Assembly: GCF_017377655.1 (NCBI RefSeq)
Contig: NZ_JAFREL010000035.1
Coordinates: 57,526 to 121,525, forward strand
DNA from: Candidatus Enterococcus ferrettii
Lineage (GTDB): Bacteria; Bacillota; Bacilli; Lactobacillales; Enterococcaceae
Direction of reading: 5' to 3'
DNA length: 64,000 nt
Part shown: in pieces, positions 46,734 to 56,577 of the stretch
Numbering within the stretch: position 1 is the first letter of the stretch
Layout of the letters: every line of letters begins with the position of its first letter
Translations under genes and position numbers: made by a program
Notes under the pieces: model-generated
The model's input: the letters and a program-made list of their open reading frames with translations, nothing else
What the model was told of the DNA's origin: nothing
The model's database searches: none

Positions 46734-47675
46734 ATGGGAAAAAAGCAAAGAGCTTTTCGGCGAACGAGAAAACTTAAAAAAATATTGCGGATATCAGCTA
46801 CCAGTTTATTGATGATTTTATTACTAATCATTGCAGTCGGTGGAAAGGTACTATATGACGTAAAAGGAACAACAGACGCTGCTTACGAATCTGTTGCACG
46901 AACGCAGAAAGCAAAACCAATTGACTTGAAACGCAAGGAGCCCTTTAGTGTTTTACTGCTTGGTGTAGATACCGGTGCATTAGGTCGTACTGAACAGGGA
47001 CGTTCAGACACGATTATGGTGGCAACAGTTAATCCAACAACAGAACAAACAACGTTAGTCAGTTTGCCTCGAGATACGTATGCTGAAATTGTTGGGCAGG
47101 GTTCATTTGATAAAATTAATCACGCCTATGCCTTTGGCGGAACAGCTATGACCATTGCTACCGTTGAAAAATTACTGGATATACCGATCAATTATTATGT
47201 AACGATTAATATGGAAGGAATCGAGTCTCTTGTTGATGCAGTAGGAGGTATTGAAGTATCCAATCCCTTTGCTTTCACGTATGAAGAAACCGAGTTTCCA
47301 ATCGGCTTGCAGTATTTAAATGGAAGCAACGCATTAAAATACGTTCGCATGCGCTATGATGATCCAGATGGAGATTATGGCCGACAGGCAAGACAACGAC
47401 AGGTCATCGAAGGAATCATGAAGCAAGCGGTTAGCATTAGAGGGTTAACCGGTTATCAAGAAATACTTGCGAGTTTAGGTGACAATATTAAGACAGACAT
47501 CCGTTTTAAGGATGCGGAATCAATAATCAGAAACTATCGTGGGGCTTTTAGTAAAGTAGAATCTGAACAGGCTAAAGGAGAAGGATTCATGCAGGATGAC
47601 ATTTCTTACCAGCGGCTTTTACCAGACGAATTAGCGAGAATTCAAGGGCTGCTGAAGAAACAGCTAGCCAAATAA
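46734..47675 (+). CDS. LytR-CpsA-Psr (LCP) family glycopolymer transferase
   Basis: A 313-residue membrane-anchored enzyme with a short basic N terminus, one membrane helix (LLMILLLIIAVGGKVLYDV) and the extracytoplasmic LCP domain. Motifs are FSVLLLGVDTG, GRSDTIMVATVNP, LVSLPRDTYAE, DKINHAYAFGG and the Arg pair in YGRQARQRQ. LCP proteins transfer undecaprenyl-linked glycopolymers onto peptidoglycan. In this context it probably attaches the polysaccharide of the first cluster (or wall teichoic acid) to the wall. GGAGTGG precedes the ATG. Confidence 0.92.
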   Translation: MGKKQRAFRRTRKLKKILRISATSLLMILLLIIAVGGKVLYDVKGTTDAAYESVARTQKAKPIDLKRKEPFSVLLLGVDTGALGRTEQGRSDTIMVATVNPTTEQTTLVSLPRDTYAEIVGQGSFDKINHAYAFGGTAMTIATVEKLLDIPINYYVTINMEGIESLVDAVGGIEVSNPFAFTYEETEFPIGLQYLNGSNALKYVRMRYDDPDGDYGRQARQRQVIEGIMKQAVSIRGLTGYQEILASLGDNIKTDIRFKDAESIIRNYRGAFSKVESEQAKGEGFMQDDISYQRLLPDELARIQGLLKKQLAK

Positions 47676-47773
47676 CGGAGCAAGCGAAAAAGAAACAACC
47701 GTATTTTGTCAAATATGATACATTTTGTAATAAACTGTAACCTTCATGCAACATCGTTGTCCTTTTTTTTGCG

Positions 47774-47779
47774 TATAAT
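47774..47779 (+). promoter_or_regulatory. -10 box of the 3D-domain protein gene
   Basis: TATAAT lies 33 bases before the GTG start. The -35 region is weak. A T-rich tract precedes it. Confidence 0.4.
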
Positions 47780-47811
47780 AACCACAGGGAAGACAGAAAG
47801 GTGGAAATGCA

Positions 47812-48993
47812 GTGAAGGGGAAGATGTTTGGTATTTTTGCGACAGTTTTATTAAGCACAAATATGCTTACACCAGTGTTCGTTCAAGCCGAATCAATGGA
47901 TAAGCTAGATGAAAAAGCAACGACTATCGCACGCCAAAGTGACAAAATCAGTGCAGAACTACAGCTCGCATTAAACGATGTGAACAAAACCTATCAAGAG
48001 GTAAACGGAATCCGCAGCGAGATTGAAGCCAATCAGCAAACAATCGAAAAGACTAAGTCAGAGATTGCGGAAACGGAAAAGAATATAGCACAACGCAAAG
48101 AAGTCATAGCAGAACGAATGAAGGAAGTGCAGCTTAACAGCACAACCGATCGAACCATTACAGCTCTGCTTGAGGCAAAAGACTTCAATGACTTTTTGAA
48201 TCGAGCTTACGCAATGTCAGTGATTCAAAAGGCCGAAAAAGAAAAAGTAACTAGTTTAAATGAGGCGAAAGCTAAGTTAGATGAATTGAAGACAACTCAA
48301 GAGACTACTCAAGCGAAGCTGGTAGCTAACGAAGAGAGCTTGAAGACAGAGTCTTCTCAACTAGATAATAAAATGGAAAATCTGAAGACTGAGCTGGCAG
48401 ATAAGAAATCAAGCCTTGAAGAAATCAGTCAAGCCAAAGAAGTAGAGCAGGCGCGTCTAACCGCAGAAAAAGCTCAAAAAGAAAAAGCGGAAAAAGAAGC
48501 GAAACAAGCAGCGAAACAAGCAGCGGAGAAAGCTGAAGTGCAAAAGGCTGCTGAAGCAAAAGCGCAACAAGAACAAGCAGCTGCTGCACAAGCACAACAA
48601 AGTGCATCGTCCAGCGCAACTTCAGAAACACAAACGCAAGAATCAGTACAACAACCGGCTGCTCCGGAACAACCAGCAGCACCGGCACCAAGTACACCGA
48701 CAACATCTGGACGTACAATTCAGATGCAGTCAACAGCGTACTCTTGTGCTGAGTCAGTAAACACCTTTTACACTGCACTAGGAATTGACCTTCGTCAAAA
48801 TCCGCAGGTAGTCGCAGTGGATCCTTCCGTAGTTCCACTGGGATCAATGGTAGAAGTTTCCGGTTATGGAATTGCGATTGCCGGTGATACTGGTGGAGCA
48901 ATCAAAGGAAATATTGTAGATGTCCACTTCCCAACTGTTGAACAATGTATTCAATGGGGACGTCGGTCTGTAACCTTAACCATCATTAGCTAA
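47812..48993 (+). CDS. Secreted protein with PcsB-like coiled coil and C-terminal 3D domain
   Basis: A 393-residue secreted protein. The signal peptide ends at FVQAES. Residues 30-230 are long coiled coil (QSDKISAELQLALNDVNKTY, and so on), as in PcsB/CwlO-type cell-wall proteins activated by FtsEX. A low-complexity Ala/Gln/Lys and Pro/Ala/Ser linker follows. The last 90 residues are a 3D domain (three conserved Asp: VAVDPSVVPLGSMV, IAGDTGGAIKG, IVDVHF, then WGRRSV), related to lytic transglycosylases MltA and Rpf-like enzymes. It is likely a peptidoglycan hydrolase. The start is a GTG at 47812 with GAAAGGTGG upstream. It has its own promoter and terminator. Confidence 0.88.
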   Translation: MKGKMFGIFATVLLSTNMLTPVFVQAESMDKLDEKATTIARQSDKISAELQLALNDVNKTYQEVNGIRSEIEANQQTIEKTKSEIAETEKNIAQRKEVIAERMKEVQLNSTTDRTITALLEAKDFNDFLNRAYAMSVIQKAEKEKVTSLNEAKAKLDELKTTQETTQAKLVANEESLKTESSQLDNKMENLKTELADKKSSLEEISQAKEVEQARLTAEKAQKEKAEKEAKQAAKQAAEKAEVQKAAEAKAQQEQAAAAQAQQSASSSATSETQTQESVQQPAAPEQPAAPAPSTPTTSGRTIQMQSTAYSCAESVNTFYTALGIDLRQNPQVVAVDPSVVPLGSMVEVSGYGIAIAGDTGGAIKGNIVDVHFPTVEQCIQWGRRSVTLTIIS

Positions 48994-50277: not shown

Positions 50278-51304
50278 AATGGCTTCCTCATTTCTTCATT
50301 TAAGTAATAGATAAGTCGTGTAAGTGAAAGAAGAGCTGCTGCAACTCTTCAAGAGTCAATTATCATGTAAAAAATTTATAGGTAGTTCGACATTTTTTCA
50401 TACGAAGTTGTCTAAGAAGCCGCTATTCTTAGCACTCGTAGTTTGTAACTAATTTTAAGAGCGTCCATTCTTTTTCTGTTTAGAGTTGTTTACCAGCTGG
50501 TAACTTAACCATACTTGAATAACACGGATTTGAAAAACGACGAAAGTGGTTGGGCATGTCCCAAATTGACAGACATATTTTTGAAGAATCCTAATTTGAT
50601 AGGGTTTTACTAATTTTTATCCCTATTCAAGCTAAAAAAACCACCGTTTTGGGACATATAGAAAAATTTCCCCATGTCCCAAAATGACCGGAGTACTTTG
50701 TGAATAAAGCTCTTGGATAGATTGATAAAAAGCTGTTTTTGTTAGTGAATGACCAGTGAAAGAGACTTGGGAAAGTTTGGTTTTGGCTTCCAGATCAGAA
50801 ATTAGATAACAAAGAATCTTTATTACGGGAACTGATGTGATTGTTTACTTGGCAAAAAATATATCAACTAGCACAAACATACTCAGAAAAGTATACCGCT
50901 TATTTAGTTTCTAAATAGTTTGGCATTCAAAATGAACCATTTTTCTTCATTTTGAGTATAGATAATCAGTTAGCGGTACAAATGTAAGACAAATATGAGA
51001 GCCAGATTAGATGACAGATATTACAAAACAGTAGATCAACGAGAACTATTTCTTTGCTTATTGTTTTTTTATGAAAAAGCACCGATTCTTTCAGAAAAAC
51101 AAAAAAAGTTATCTGTCTGAAATTGTTGTTATTTTCAAGTTTCTTTGGCCGAAAAAGAAATATTTTTTCTTATTAGAACGAACCTAATAATCTTTGGTGG
51201 GTGAAATTACATAAATAATATATAAAATAATAAATACAACTGGAATAACCCGGTCGAGATAGCTTTTTGCGATGTTTTTTAATCTGAAAGTTATAATAGT
51301 GTTG
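50278..51304. other. Gene-free, A+T-rich stretch with palindromes and repeats
   Basis: About 1 kb without a credible coding region on either strand. It holds a perfect palindrome TTACCAGCTGGTAA (50490-50503) and a hairpin TCAAAATGAA/TTCATTTTGA (50927-50936 and 50946-50955). A small hairpin ATTTAG-TTT-CTAAAT lies near 50903-50917, and the ATGTCCC repeats are listed separately. It may contain the promoter of the minus-strand pair near 50290-50330, or an untranslated RNA, or be decayed sequence. Confidence 0.5.
50555..50688. repeat. Repeated CATGTCCCAAAWTGAC motif with inverted copy
   Basis: CATGTCCCAAATTGAC (50555-50570) recurs as CATGTCCCAAAATGAC (50673-50688). An inverted partial copy TTTTGGGACAT (50647-50657) forms an 11-base stem with the second. 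Between them GATAGGG and CCCTATT (about 50598 and 50629) can also pair. The function is unknown. Confidence 0.6.
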
Positions 51305-51333
51305 TTGTATTTTTGTGTAGATGAAAGTATAAT
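51305..51333 (+). promoter_or_regulatory. Promoter of the sortase module and second polysaccharide operon
   Basis: TTGTAT (51305-51310), 17 bases, then consensus TATAAT (51328-51333). The transcript would have a leader of about 135 bases before the ATG at 51476. No terminator was seen between here and 63249, so this may drive the whole operon. Confidence 0.6.
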
Positions 51334-51475
51334 GTGAACAGTGATTAATTAAAATGGCGTAGTTTGGCCTGTGTTCATTTTGGTCAGGCGGTTATTTTTA
51401 GTTAGTTGCTCATTAAATCACGGGATTCAGAGTCTAACTCTTTTCCAAATAAATCTAAAAAAGGAGGTCTGTCGA

Positions 51476-52084
51476 ATGAAAAAACTTGTTAGTGTTGTTT
51501 TAGCAGTAATGGCAGTGTTCTTATTAGCTGCTCCTTCTGCACACGCGGATGGCGCGATCACAGCAGACGAGCAACGTATTTTAACAGAGATGGACAAAGG
51601 CGTTACTGTAAGTGGCAAGAATTTTGCTTTTGCAAGTTCAGATCGTGCACAAGCAGAAAACTACTTGAAGCAACACGATGTCTCTACTGCACAGGTTGAT
51701 GCGGTTGTTGGATACATCCAACAAGCACGCGCAATTGCAGCTGCTCAAAACGTGAATGTTTCAAACATCAATTCATTACCTGAATTGATCAAAGCATTCC
51801 CACGTAATGTAATCAATGATTTGAAGAACATTGTTTCTTCAGCAGCGAACGTGCTAGGCTTAACTGCAACTTACGGTCCGGGTTCAGTAACTATTACTGA
51901 AAGAACTGGGAACAACGGTGCAGCTAATGTTAAAACTGTAACTCCAGGCAAAAACACTGTTTATGCTTCTGGTGGCGCAGTAAAACAAACTGGTGCTAAT
52001 TACGCGGTTAGTTTTGCATCATTCGGAAGTTTATTGGTACTCGCAGCAGGTGCGTTTGTCGTAGCTAAAAAGCGTGTTGCCTAA
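51476..52084 (+). CDS. Small secreted surface protein with non-canonical VKQTG sorting signal
   Basis: A 202-residue secreted protein. The signal peptide (MKKLVSVVLAVMAVFLLAAP, cleavage after AHA) is followed by a helical domain of about 120 residues (ITADEQRILTEMDKGVTVSG, then DVSTAQVDAVVGYIQQARAI) and a short Gly/Asn/Thr linker. The C terminus has a sorting-signal layout: VKQTG (residues 169-173), a hydrophobic stretch (FASFGSLLVLAAGAFVV) and a basic end KKRVA. The pentapeptide keeps Thr-Gly but replaces Leu-Pro by Val-Lys. AAAGGAGGT fixes the start at 51476, not the longer frame from 51371. A sortase gene overlaps its 3' end, so this is almost certainly the cognate substrate. Its function is unknown. 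Confidence 0.82.
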   Translation: MKKLVSVVLAVMAVFLLAAPSAHADGAITADEQRILTEMDKGVTVSGKNFAFASSDRAQAENYLKQHDVSTAQVDAVVGYIQQARAIAAAQNVNVSNINSLPELIKAFPRNVINDLKNIVSSAANVLGLTATYGPGSVTITERTGNNGAANVKTVTPGKNTVYASGGAVKQTGANYAVSFASFGSLLVLAAGAFVVAKKRVA

Positions 52085-52772
52085 GAAAACTTCTTGGCTA
52101 AAGAGACTTGGGGCGGCAATCGTTGCCCCAGTTGTTTTTTTAGTAATCGGATACTCTCTCATGTACGTAATCGGAAAACCTGTCATTCAATTCGTGACAT
52201 CAACGATAGAATTATTCTTACTAACAGATGCACCAACATTTGATGCTCAAGCAGCGGAGGATTTCACTGCTATAAAGGAAGAAGAAGTTCAAGAGAAGGT
52301 TAATGAAAACAACGAGCTTCCATCTAGCGAACTAACTTATCCAGTTGGCGGACAACAGTATGGAAAGATTCTTGTTTCACCAATCGGATTGGATGTTCCG
52401 TTGTATTTTGGAGATACTGATGAAATGTTACGTTTAGGTGCGGGACAATTTATGGGCTCGGTTTACCCTGGTGAACAGGGAACAAGCTTAATTGGCGGAC
52501 ACAATGTTGATGGTTTTGGAAAATTAGCGATGATCAATATCGGTGATGAGATCCAAATTCAGACAACCTATGGCAATTATGTATTTACTGTTTCCAATAA
52601 AGAAGTCGCAAATAAAGACGATAAAGCAATCAACGATTTGATCTATCAGCGAGATAAACGGATTGCACTTTTATATACCTGCTATCCAATTGATAGCTTG
52701 GGGATGACTGATGAGCGGTTATTTGTTACTGCTGATTACACATCAGGACCAATGATTAATGAGAATGAATAG
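52074..52772 (+). CDS. Dedicated sortase next to its probable substrate
   Basis: A 232-residue membrane-bound transpeptidase. One N-terminal helix (LGAAIVAPVVFLVIGYSLMY) is followed by an acidic linker and the sortase beta-barrel. The catalytic triad is visible: His143 in SLIGGHNVDGFG, Cys203 in LLYTCYPID and Arg215 in MTDERLFV. The single-domain form with N-terminal anchor resembles class D or E rather than the housekeeping class A. The start is a GTG at 52074 that overlaps the substrate gene by 11 bases and has no clear SD, so translation is probably coupled to it. It would recognise VKQTG. Confidence 0.87.
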   Translation: MLPKKTSWLKRLGAAIVAPVVFLVIGYSLMYVIGKPVIQFVTSTIELFLLTDAPTFDAQAAEDFTAIKEEEVQEKVNENNELPSSELTYPVGGQQYGKILVSPIGLDVPLYFGDTDEMLRLGAGQFMGSVYPGEQGTSLIGGHNVDGFGKLAMINIGDEIQIQTTYGNYVFTVSNKEVANKDDKAINDLIYQRDKRIALLYTCYPIDSLGMTDERLFVTADYTSGPMINENE

Positions 52773-52781
52773 GAGAGAAGC

Positions 52782-53630
52782 ATGAGCACATCGAAAAAAT
52801 TTGCCCGTTGGCTGTTAGCCTTCATTAGTTCTCTGTTACTATTCTCATTGCTGACCCTGACCTGTGTTAAGTCCACCTTGTTCAATCAAGAATTCATGGT
52901 TGATCAGATTCATCAAGCAGATTATGTAACAAGAGTACAAAAAGACGTTACCCAGCGCATTCAAGACTTTGGACGAGGAAGTAATATTCCGCCGGAAGAG
53001 TTAGCTGAAGTGGTTCCAAGAGAAGTTGTCGAAGAAAATGTTGATAACTACATTCGTGGTATCTACACAGGTGTTCCTTTTAATATAGTTGGTAAAGATA
53101 AACTTAGTAAGAACATTCAAACAGCCGTTGATCGTTATGCAGCAGAAAAAGGAATCGATATTGACGAAGCAACGCAAGCGAATATTGATCAGTTGAACGA
53201 TACCGCTGCTGGAGCATTCGAATCCTACATCGCAATTCCTTACCTATTAGAATACGGACAAAAAGTGATGGCCTACAATCAAACATTGACGCTGTTAATG
53301 ATCATTGTTGGGGTGGCCTTTTTACTTGTCTTTATTGGCTTAATGATTACTACTAAATGGCTGCATCGTCGTCTCCGTTTTGCCGGAGCTGTTATTGGTG
53401 GTGCGGGCTTAATGTTAACAGCTTTACCATTATACATTTATTTCAGCGGAGTGATTGACCGTTTAGGAATCACATCTGAAGGAATGTATCACTTCATCAC
53501 TAATTACTTAAAGGCTTTTGATTTAACCTTCGTTAAGGCAGGAATTATTAGTTTAGTCTTAGCAGTGATCTTAGTGCTGATTAGTGAAGTTTTACGTCGC
53601 AAAAATGTTAGTCGGGTAAAGGGAGAATAA
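52782..53630 (+). CDS. Membrane protein of the sortase module, unknown function
   Basis: A 282-residue protein. One N-terminal helix (WLLAFISSLLLFSLLTLTC) precedes an extracytoplasmic domain of about 120 residues, rich in Gln and Asp (VQKDVTQRIQDFGRGSNIPP, ENVDNYIRGIYTGVPFNI). Three further helices follow (LTLLMIIVGVAFLLVFIGLM, GAVIGGAGLMLTALPLYIYF, IISLVLAVILVLISEVL) and a basic tail. No characterised family was recognised. GGAGAG lies before the ATG, 10 bases after the sortase gene, and the next gene (wzz) starts one base after the stop. It might help present the substrate or link the sortase to the polysaccharide machinery. Confidence 0.72.
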   Translation: MSTSKKFARWLLAFISSLLLFSLLTLTCVKSTLFNQEFMVDQIHQADYVTRVQKDVTQRIQDFGRGSNIPPEELAEVVPREVVEENVDNYIRGIYTGVPFNIVGKDKLSKNIQTAVDRYAAEKGIDIDEATQANIDQLNDTAAGAFESYIAIPYLLEYGQKVMAYNQTLTLLMIIVGVAFLLVFIGLMITTKWLHRRLRFAGAVIGGAGLMLTALPLYIYFSGVIDRLGITSEGMYHFITNYLKAFDLTFVKAGIISLVLAVILVLISEVLRRKNVSRVKGE

Positions 53631-53631
53631 A

Positions 53632-54423
53632 ATGGAAGAAACAATTAGCTTAGGGGAAATCTTTGACATCTTAAAGAAACGCATCGGCATGATACTTGTT
53701 ACTACACTAGCAAGTATCTTAATCGCGGGTGCTGTTACATTTTTCATCATTACCCCTAAATACAGTGCCTCAACACAAATGATTGTCCAGTCGAGTACAG
53801 CTGAAAATCCAAATACCAATTTACAAAATGATATCAATGGTAATGTTCTGCTGATTAATACATATAAAGATATGATTACTGGTGACTTGGTTATCGACAC
53901 TGCTCGAGATCAGCTGCAGGCAGAAAATAATTACAGTTTGACGAGCGAAAACTTGAGAGCAATGGTGGAAGTCGAACAATCACAAAATTCTCAAATGTTT
54001 CAGGTGATTGCGACTGCTGAGCATCCACAGGAAGCAGCAGTTATTGCAAACAAAGTATCACAAATTTTTCAAGAAAAGGCACAAGAAGTATTAGCTGTTA
54101 ATAAGGTAACCATTACTTCAAACGCTCAAACACCTACAAAGCCTGTTTCGCCGAATAACAAGTTGAACTTGGCAATTGGTGCAGCTTTAGGAATTATGCT
54201 TGGAGTAGGTATCGCTTTTCTATTAGAACTAGTAGATAAGACAGTCAAGGACGAACGTTTTGTGATAGAAACCTTGGATTTACCTATTTTAGGACAAGTA
54301 ACTGAAATGAACAAAAAAGAATTAAGTTATAGTCGGAATGCACAAAGTCCAAAAGCAACTCACAAAACGCCGGCTAAAGCCGCCACATCTGCTGGCAGCC
54401 GCCAATCTAGGAAACGTGTGTAG
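53632..54423 (+). CDS. Wzz/CpsC-type tyrosine kinase modulator, copy 2
   Basis: A 263-residue polysaccharide co-polymerase. It begins with SLGEIFDILKKRIGMILVTT, has TM1 at about 18-40, an extracytoplasmic domain and PTKPVSPNNKLNLAIGAALG leading into TM2, then a cytoplasmic tail (ELVDKTVKDERFVIETLDLP). The tail is the usual activator of the BY-kinase in the next gene. It is clearly related to the copy at 40485. One base separates it from the membrane protein gene before it, so the sortase module and this cluster share a transcript. Confidence 0.9.
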   Translation: MEETISLGEIFDILKKRIGMILVTTLASILIAGAVTFFIITPKYSASTQMIVQSSTAENPNTNLQNDINGNVLLINTYKDMITGDLVIDTARDQLQAENNYSLTSENLRAMVEVEQSQNSQMFQVIATAEHPQEAAVIANKVSQIFQEKAQEVLAVNKVTITSNAQTPTKPVSPNNKLNLAIGAALGIMLGVGIAFLLELVDKTVKDERFVIETLDLPILGQVTEMNKKELSYSRNAQSPKATHKTPAKAATSAGSRQSRKRV

Positions 54424-54432
54424 GAGGAAGTT

Positions 54433-55119
54433 ATGGCAAAGAAAAAGAATGAAATACTACCAGTTGCCTTAGTCGCAGCAACCGATAACTTCTCAACTAC
54501 TACCGAGCAATATCGGACCATTCGAACAAACATCAGTTTTTCATCTGCTGACAAAGAAATTAAGACCTTGGTCATTACTTCATCTGGTCCCTCAGAAGGG
54601 AAATCGACGACTTCAGCGAATCTGGCGATCGTTTTTGCAAATGCTGGAAGCAAAGTGTTACTGGTTGATGCCGATTTAAGAAAGCCCAGTGTAGCAATTA
54701 GTTTCCGTTTGCCAAATGCAACCGGATTAAGCAATTTATTGACAAACCGTGAAGCATCAATCGATCGGTATTACCAGGCAAGCTCAGTGGATAATTTGTA
54801 TGTAATGACTAGTGGACCCAAACCACCAAATCCATCAGAATTACTAGGTTCACAAAGAATGCTGGATATTATGAATGTGATGCGAGAAGAATTTGATGTG
54901 ATTATTTTCGATATGCCACCAGTGGCAACTGTTACAGATGCACAGATTTTAGCAGCACATACCGATGGAACACTATTGGTTATCCGTGAGCGGAAAACAA
55001 AGAAACAAGATGTCATTAAGGCAAAAGAATTACTAACATTAGCAAAAGCTAATATCTTAGGCGTTGTTTACAATGGCAAGAAAAAAGGCGACTCAGCTGG
55101 TTACTATTATTACGGTTAG
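54433..55119 (+). CDS. Bacterial tyrosine kinase CpsD/Wze, copy 2
   Basis: A 228-residue BY-kinase. Walker A is SSGPSEGKSTTSANLA, Walker A' is VLLVDADLRKP and Walker B is VIIFDMPPVATV. The tail ends with a tyrosine cluster AGYYYYG. It lies nine bases after its Wzz activator and 11 bases before a CpsB phosphatase, so the regulatory triad kinase, activator and phosphatase is complete here, unlike in the first cluster. It sits in the cytoplasm on the Wzz protein. Confidence 0.93.
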   Translation: MAKKKNEILPVALVAATDNFSTTTEQYRTIRTNISFSSADKEIKTLVITSSGPSEGKSTTSANLAIVFANAGSKVLLVDADLRKPSVAISFRLPNATGLSNLLTNREASIDRYYQASSVDNLYVMTSGPKPPNPSELLGSQRMLDIMNVMREEFDVIIFDMPPVATVTDAQILAAHTDGTLLVIRERKTKKQDVIKAKELLTLAKANILGVVYNGKKKGDSAGYYYYG

Positions 55120-55130
55120 GAGGAACAAGG

Positions 55131-55871
55131 ATGTTGGATTTGCATTGTCATATTTTACCGGGAGTTGATGACGGCGCCCAAACAATTGACGATAGTATAA
55201 AAATGGCGAAGAAAGCCGTGAAGCAAGGTATCACCCACATCCTTTGTACTCCGCACCATAACAGACATTATCAAAATCCCAAAGATGAAGTGATTCCTGC
55301 GGTTGAAGAATTGCAAGCAGTCTTTGATGATAAAGGAATTCCTTTAACATTATTTGAAGGACAAGAAGTACGGATACATGATCAACTAGTTCAAGAGATA
55401 GAAGAGGATCGTATCCTTTTTGCAGATGTATATGATCAATACGTATTAATCGAGTTTCCGACAGCAGAGATTCCACATTATGCAGAAACAGTGCTTTATG
55501 ATTTACGTCAGATGGATAAGATACCAATCATTGTACACCCAGAAAGAAACCTTGGTTTTCAAGAAGAACCAAATCAGTTATTAAATTTTTTGAATATGGG
55601 CTGTTTGGCTCAACTAACTGCACCAAGTATTGTTGGTATATTTGGGAAAACGGTTCAGAAATTGAGTCATCAATTAGTCGAAAATGGACTAGTACAAATG
55701 GTGGCATCAGATGCTCACCGCTTGAAGCAGCGGGACTTCTATTTAAAAGAAGCTTCGGAGTACATAGTAAAACATTTTGGGGAAACACATTGGGAACAAA
55801 TGGATCAGATGTGCCGTGATATCATCAATGGCGATCCAGTAGCACCTTTTAATTATCAGGAGTTAATGTGA
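55131..55871 (+). CDS. cpsB: CpsB-type tyrosine-protein phosphatase (PHP fold), copy 2
   Basis: A 246-residue manganese-type phosphatase that removes phosphate from the kinase tail. Motifs are LDLHCHILPGVDDGA, CTPHHNR, EGQEVR, VHPERN and VASDAHR. It is strongly similar to the stand-alone copy at 28526 over the whole length. TTAGGAGG precedes the ATG at 55131. It is followed by the priming transferase. Confidence 0.92.
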   Translation: MLDLHCHILPGVDDGAQTIDDSIKMAKKAVKQGITHILCTPHHNRHYQNPKDEVIPAVEELQAVFDDKGIPLTLFEGQEVRIHDQLVQEIEEDRILFADVYDQYVLIEFPTAEIPHYAETVLYDLRQMDKIPIIVHPERNLGFQEEPNQLLNFLNMGCLAQLTAPSIVGIFGKTVQKLSHQLVENGLVQMVASDAHRLKQRDFYLKEASEYIVKHFGETHWEQMDQMCRDIINGDPVAPFNYQELM

Positions 55872-55884
55872 GGGAGCGGAGAAG

Positions 55885-56577
55885 ATGGAAAAGCACGTAG
55901 TAAAAGACGACGTTCCGCCTGTTGAGAAAGTAGAGACGGTTTGGTTGGATGCAGATAAGATTAATAACCGTATTGGATTCCAATGCGTGAAACGAATAAT
56001 AGATATTACATTAAGTGCCGTAGGGCTGATTTTTCTAACCCCTGTCTTCATTGTTGTTGCTATTTTGATGAAGAAGGAAGAGCCAGGTGGACCAGTCTTT
56101 TTTAAACAGGTACGGGTAGGCAAGAATGGTAAAGAATTTACCATGTATAAATTCCGTTCGATGTGCATTGATGCAGAAGAGAAATTGGCCGATTTGCTTG
56201 ATGAAAATGAAATTAAGGGTGCGATGTTTAAGATTAAGGACGATCCAAGAGTAACAAAAATTGGAAAAGCAATTAGACGAAATAGCATTGATGAACTACC
56301 ACAATTGCTTAATGTGCTTAAAGGAGATATGAGTTTAATAGGCCCTCGGCCGCCTTTGCCAAGAGAAGTTAGAGAGTACAGTCGGCATGACATGCAACGT
56401 CTGCTAGTTAAGCCAGGTTGCTCTGGTTTATGGCAAATTAGTGGAAGGAATGACATGAACTTTGCAGAAATGGTGGAGTTAGATATTCAGTATATCAGAG
56501 AGCAAAGTTTGATTAATGATATTAAGATTATTTGGAAGACTGTCAGAATTATGATTGTTCCAAATGGTGCATATTAG
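55885..56577 (+). CDS. Undecaprenyl-phosphate sugar phosphotransferase (priming glycosyltransferase), copy 2
   Basis: A 230-residue priming transferase, single membrane helix (IIDITLSAVGLIFLTPVFIV) and PF02397 domain with FKQVRVGKNGKEFTMYKFRS, RRNSIDELPQLLNVLKGD, MSLIGPRPPLP and VKPGCSGLWQISGR. It starts the repeat unit of the second polysaccharide. It differs from copy 1 at many positions, so the two could place different first sugars. It is 13 bases after cpsB. Confidence 0.9.
   Translation: MEKHVVKDDVPPVEKVETVWLDADKINNRIGFQCVKRIIDITLSAVGLIFLTPVFIVVAILMKKEEPGGPVFFKQVRVGKNGKEFTMYKFRSMCIDAEEKLADLLDENEIKGAMFKIKDDPRVTKIGKAIRRNSIDELPQLLNVLKGDMSLIGPRPPLPREVREYSRHDMQRLLVKPGCSGLWQISGRNDMNFAEMVELDIQYIREQSLINDIKIIWKTVRIMIVPNGAY

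Follow-up and report, generated by a model that had tools for sequence, protein, structure and literature searches.

A conserved three-gene sortase module with a proline-free sorting signal and a terminator-like hairpin at the head of an enterococcal polysaccharide operon

The locus and its three proteins

In the window analysed, i.e. the whole stretch of 64,000 nt, three tightly packed genes, here called P1, P2 and P3 like their products, lie on the forward strand. P1 (51476..52084, +) encodes a secreted protein of 202 aa, the putative substrate, P2 (52074..52772, +) a class-D-like sortase with its start at either GTG 52074 or TTG 52077, and P3 (52782..53630, +) a membrane protein. They are followed by wzz, the gene of a chain length determinant (53632..54423, +; Pfam Wzz), and by genes for a wze-type tyrosine autokinase (54433..55119, +; TIGR01007 above cut-off), a CpsB/CapC-type PHP protein (55131..55871, +; PF19567) and an initiating sugar transferase (55885..56577, +; PF02397). 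The three open reading frames (secreted protein, sortase, membrane protein) lie where a preliminary description of this DNA had placed them, and its account of their packing holds with one correction: P1 and P2 overlap by 11 bases from GTG 52074 (by 8 bases from TTG 52077, the position where most homologues begin), a single base separates P3 from wzz, and the P2-P3 gap is 9 bases and not 10. A P2 start at GTG or TTG that overlaps P1 is found in most Enterococcus loci.

An LCP-family gene and a gene for a PcsB-coiled-coil/3D-domain protein are present upstream of the module (window 46734-48993), and in L075, L076, L079 and L080 the first gene upstream of P1 encodes an LCP protein. At the beginning of the window we observed a C-terminal YPSTG anchor (371-490, +), which belongs to a long open frame of 1312 aa.

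P1 is 97% identical to its counterpart in E. pallens, the host being an Enterococcus near that species. Its signal peptide is followed by a body of some 120 residues, a linker of low complexity, the motif VKQTG, a membrane stretch and the end KKRVA. The signal peptide covers residues 1-24 (51476..51547, +), with a hydrophobic stretch at residues 4-22 and a putative cleavage site at A-H-A before D, and the membrane-spanning tail with its basic end occupies 51995..52081 (+; hydrophobic stretch 178-196). Apart from the motif, Lys65 (51668..51670, +), in A-x-N-x-L-K, is among the few positions that are invariant from Enterococcus to Clostridia in alignments of 19 and 16 P1s. P1 did not reach the cut-off of any Pfam or NCBIfam family, the surface-anchor models included (13.7 vs 20 for PF00746, 10.8 vs 15.9 for TIGR01167); the clostridial P1 of L119 exceeds the second of these (20.2). 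Its predicted structure is weak (mean pLDDT 56.2, with residues 1-25 and 145-202 below 50) and this weak model matched none of the PDB structures; by sequence, neither P1 nor P3 gave a PDB match below E 0.15. No P1 was found in the plasmids searched.

P2 belongs to the Pfam Sortase family (PF04203, 61.9 bits vs a cut-off of 26.6), and the catalytic positions His143, Cys203 and Arg215, placed by alignment with solved sortases, are invariant among 19 P2s. Among the NCBIfam models, SrtD and class D score best, with neither cut-off reached (NF033746, 80.4 vs 165; NF058671, 84.1 vs 140), followed by class C (48.3), class E (41.5, cut-off 160) and class F (22.6). We rejected class E on this score, which is far below those of class D. 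In the clostridial loci L118 and L119, P2 exceeds the cut-off of NF058671 (158.1 and 156.2) and fails NF033746. Sortase systems are unusually abundant in the genome as a whole (G000), which has dozens of LPXTG-type tails and gave 16 sortase matches.

P3 has four hydrophobic segments, as expected of the four-helix membrane protein first described: an N-terminal membrane helix, ~135 aa that are probably outside, and three further helices. Its predicted structure is good (mean pLDDT 86.0); Pfam and NCBIfam searches gave no family, and Foldseek gave no informative match. We also considered the lipoprotein transacylase Lit, in which two conserved catalytic histidines lie outside the membrane (PMC8275575), and rejected it for P3 on the basis of the absence of both a PF07314 match at E <= 1 and the His pattern. 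Histidine is frequent in a single column of the P3 alignment, namely in 19 of 22 rows at residue 195, which lies between the second and third helices and is probably inside; the next-best column has it in 8 of 22. The Lit-like topology is a lead only.

Conservation of the module and of its sorting signal

A first search, covering 60 relatives, found P1 and P3 in 18 genomes each and P2, at high score, in those same genomes. Among 105 Enterococcaceae genomes, 47 had P1, 47 had P2 (E <= 1e-25) and 48 had P3, and the order P1, P2, P3 was found for 51 of the 52 P1 matches, the 52nd being a weak match of 63 residues to the tail alone. The order was the same in all 28 loci of a search in named genomes, including two loci of Vagococcus and three clostridial ones (L117 and L118 from metagenome assemblies, L119 from Oceanirhabdus); L099 and L112 have an interrupted P2, L115 an interrupted P3. 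Since the triplet is conserved across genomes, a chance arrangement of three genes is excluded, and the existence of a conserved three-gene sortase module, as first proposed, is strongly supported. Interrupted copies of P2 or P3 were observed in L080 and L099 (E. avium ATCC 14025), L112 (E. crotali) and L115 (Vagococcus bubulae).

The preliminary description had named the occurrence of the three genes apart from one another as a point against it. They are mostly together, the exceptions being one P2-P3 pair without P1 (genome G006, locus L078 14354-19801) and 11 lone P3 relatives, one each in 11 of the 105 Enterococcaceae genomes, all but one in a single genus. The former is a second locus of its genome, with sortase, P3 and wzz, and has a gene for an unrelated membrane protein upstream; the latter, without P1 or sortase, include L090 8314-9192 and L091 7322-8206. 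These lone relatives hint that the P3 family is also used without a sortase. As the triplet is unsplit in 51 loci, P3 belongs with the P1-P2 pair.

Outside Enterococcaceae the module is rare: P1 matches were 5 in 299 genomes of a class sample, one of them a spurious tail match, and 1 in 299 of a phylum sample, namely the own genome itself. These samples being nearly empty, the spread to clostridia is drawn from the named-genome search alone. One other class gave 0 of 82, a count that is uninformative because the sample held no genome known to match.

The sorting signal of P1, V-K-Q-T-G (residues 169-173; 51980..51994, +), came from the comparison of P1 tails. The C-terminus has the order of the LPXTG type (motif, membrane stretch 178-196, KK tail), with a motif that lacks proline. 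This signal had been called degenerate, a view that we rejected: 39 of 40 distinct P1 tails carry the conserved variant [VI]-K-[QNTA]-T-G, with K at the proline position, and the remaining one reads VNQTG. Within the own genome, proline is second in 54 of 55 other readable anchor tails, the 55th being doubtful. Precisely, 61 of the 78 other matches were inspected, of which 55 could be read at the tail and 6 could not, and the script counted proline in 50 of 55, four more being one frame off and showing proline when read by eye. The search used an LPXTG model, which disfavours proline-free tails; therefore other tails of this kind could be missed in the own genome. With a signal that sets it apart and a sortase gene next door, P1 looks like one half of a dedicated pair, in which P2 would cut at the motif.

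Expression signals and the hairpin inside the sortase gene

Upstream of P1 we read from the sequence a probable promoter (TTGTAT, 17, TATAAT; 51305..51333, +) and, at 51463..51468 (+), a strong Shine-Dalgarno sequence, GGAGG, conserved in L092 and L093. The promoter had been part of the preliminary description. In its favour, two relatives, namely E. pallens (L092) and Enterococcus sp. 669A (L093), have kept TATAAT and a flanking block; against it, the site is missing from the list of a consensus scan and its -35 hexamer matches the consensus at 3 of 6 positions. The whole block 51275-51350, including GTTTTTTAATCTGAAAGTTATAATA upstream of the promoter, is nearly unchanged in these two loci and its flanks diverge; it is possibly the site of a regulator.

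For the share of C-ending codons for N, F, Y and I, P1 ranks first among the 58 open reading frames of the window (with its frame taken together with a 35-codon upstream extension). The share was higher in P1 than in P2 in 18 of 19 loci, and P1 had the highest CGT, GGT and AAC shares among the genes compared; pooled over loci, however, the C-ending share was 0.47 for wzz vs 0.44 for P1. Such a codon bias is taken as a sign of high expression.

Just past the P1 stop, the coding sequence of P2 contains a hairpin (52105..52133, +; core stem 52108-52131), supported by terminator scan, folding and covariation. It has 10 pairs, 6 of them G-C, and a loop of 4, and is followed by the T-run TTGTTTTTTT (52132..52141, +; terminator scan), so that the element has the make-up of an intrinsic terminator, i.e. 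a G+C-rich stem and then a T-run. Terminator-like sites in the window region were 7 vs 4.3 expected (sd 2.1), which is not above chance, and the count alone is therefore uninformative. A hairpin with a T-rich tract is found at the same place in other loci, with a different sequence and stem register.

We folded the stretch after the P1 stop (72 bases; 110 bases for L118 and L119) and compared it with synonymous-codon shuffles in which protein and codon usage were kept fixed. The minimum free energy was below that of the shuffles at z < -2 in 34 of the 40 distinct junctions, which are not independent of one another (mean z -3.0; window -2.6), the six others being L003, L006, L012, L015, L019 and L103. 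The terminator score was reached by at most 4 of 150 shuffles in 36 of the 40. At gene starts, the mean z was -2.61 for the sortase (n=20), and for five other genes of the operon it was 0.15 (P3, n=22), 0.59 (wzz, n=16), 0.10 (wze, n=16), -0.23 (wzb, n=13) and 0.16 (sugar transferase, n=12).

For covariation we used 36 of the 40 junctions, which gave 28 distinct pieces of 48 bases in two groups of stem register; L019, L117, L118 and L119 do not align and were omitted. Stem changes on both sides were found in 24 cells vs 10.0 in shuffles for the first group, and in 10 cells vs 4.0 for the second, whose register was picked after a table of slides and is two columns off the first one tried (67.8% paired, no covariation). 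In both groups, more cells were paired, and more were changed on both sides, than in shuffles, and the covariation score was higher; the number of pair types was not above shuffles in either group, nor were the pairs changed on both sides in the first. The hairpin is gone in the P1-less sortase copy (L078 16635; z -0.68), which has its own AGGAGG before the start, and is also missing in L019/L085, where P1 is kept. An Rfam search gave no match. Taken together, these comparisons point to a hairpin kept by selection, which may act as an actual terminator.

The hairpin could instead be an element of RNA stability or processing, or a brake on sortase translation, in which case an excess of P1 would come from differential decay or from weak translation of the sortase. 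The interrupted T-run of the avium group (5 of 8 T) fits this reading, as does the sortase start, which in most Enterococcus loci is a TTG or GTG within the overlap with P1. We nevertheless consider it unlikely: a T-rich tract lies directly behind the stem in most loci, the stem leads straight into the T-run in Vagococcus and L117, and it is placed past the sortase start without covering it.

Proposed working of the module

We consider as the best reading, with a probability of about 0.65, a dedicated sortase-substrate unit with P1 produced in excess and with the sortase, P3 and any downstream polysaccharide genes expressed by read-through. RNA polymerase would begin near 51340, and promoter and strong ribosome site would give much P1 mRNA and protein; the intrinsic terminator in the first sortase codons would then end most transcripts after P1. 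Part of them would read through, perhaps upon re-initiation of ribosomes at the nearby sortase start, giving little sortase and P3 and, at this locus, the polysaccharide enzymes too. P1 would be exported to the membrane, where P2 would recognise the proline-free [VI]-K-x-T-G, cut between Thr and Gly and join P1 to the wall, with P3 as an obligate membrane partner of the pair. The first suggestion, that a single promoter serves the module together with the polysaccharide genes, is weakened, because a conserved terminator-like hairpin separates P1 from the later genes, and read-through is the likely route.

In fimbrial and pilus operons a hairpin after the gene of the major subunit results in more subunit than assembly enzyme. 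The module would share this logic, with the difference that here the hairpin is inside the coding sequence of the enzyme and would be selected jointly with the encoded peptide. In a further alternative, P1 is polymerised into a thin fibre, the Thr of one P1 being joined to Lys65 of the next. The invariance of Lys65 in A-x-N-x-L-K from Enterococcus to Clostridia speaks for it, and so does a gene layout that favours substrate excess. A fibre is improbable, however, since the best models of P2 are of class D and not of the pilin-building class C, P1 has no pilin domain recognised by Pfam or structure searches, and the invariance of Lys65 may be structural. Equally speculative is an extended form, i.e. 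a minimal fibre with K-x-T-G as donor and Lys65 as acceptor, the chain being held by P3, and a terminator gated by re-initiation that would set the ratio of subunit to enzyme and throttle the polysaccharide operon.

The proposed dedicated unit can also be considered in relation to the polysaccharide genes. One set has wzz behind P3 at 15 of its 19 triplet loci, and the named-genome set, which overlaps with it, at 16 of 28. The triplet expected next to wzz in other enterococci is conserved, with wzz adjacent in part, and the position at the head of a polysaccharide operon holds here and at those 16 loci. In the other 12 of the 28, among them the E. plantarum-type group, Vagococcus and the clostridia, wzz is absent behind P3, as it is in one second copy (L085). 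The neighbours looked up in loci without wzz, such as ABC ATPase, CBS/ACT protein, acetyltransferases, signal peptidase and transposases, are of a general kind; L109, a locus of the E. plantarum type, has genes for an ABC ATPase, a CBS/ACT protein and a CoA-enzyme activase beside the module. The module is therefore independent of wzz. It is a unit of its own, which came to head a polysaccharide operon and was not built for it, and we rejected its being a part of the polysaccharide machinery by nature on account of these 12 loci. A tie between polysaccharide and protein, with P1 joined to the glycan or serving as a capsule scaffold, draws on the single base between P3 and wzz and on the loci in which wzz follows; it is improbable, given the loci without wzz behind P3, and sortases are not known to use sugar acceptors. 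For the joining of protein to glycan itself, put forward in the preliminary description, we found nothing in favour.

Two components of the unit are already known from other systems, namely a class-D-type sortase with a neighbouring substrate and, for class E, proline-free signals (PMC4498605, PMC5148588). In Clostridium perfringens, SrtD is in one operon with CPE_RS01465, a hypothetical wall-anchored protein and likely substrate, and prefers LPQTGS, with proline (PMC4498605). P2 and P1 have in common with this pair, CPE_RS01465 being likened by its description, a class-D-type sortase beside its likely substrate; a third membrane gene and an internal terminator, the latter proposed here, are not mentioned for that operon in the account cited (PMC4498605). 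Streptomyces SrtE1, of class E, acts on LAXTG substrates, which similarly present a proline-free signal to a suited sortase, with alanine where the P1 signal has lysine (PMC5148588). In the open-access literature searched we found no paper on the P1-P2-P3 module or the lysine motif, and neither the third gene nor a terminator inside the coding sequence of the enzyme.

The module offers a regulatory RNA hairpin that appears to be selected inside a coding sequence from Enterococcus to Clostridia, with stem registers specific to the lineage. At this locus, it would be a simple way for a surface-protein gene and a polysaccharide operon to share a promoter yet differ in output. If the proposed pairing is true, it adds to the substrates of sortases a proline-free, lysine-bearing signal with an enzyme of its own, present in 47 of 105 Enterococcaceae genomes.
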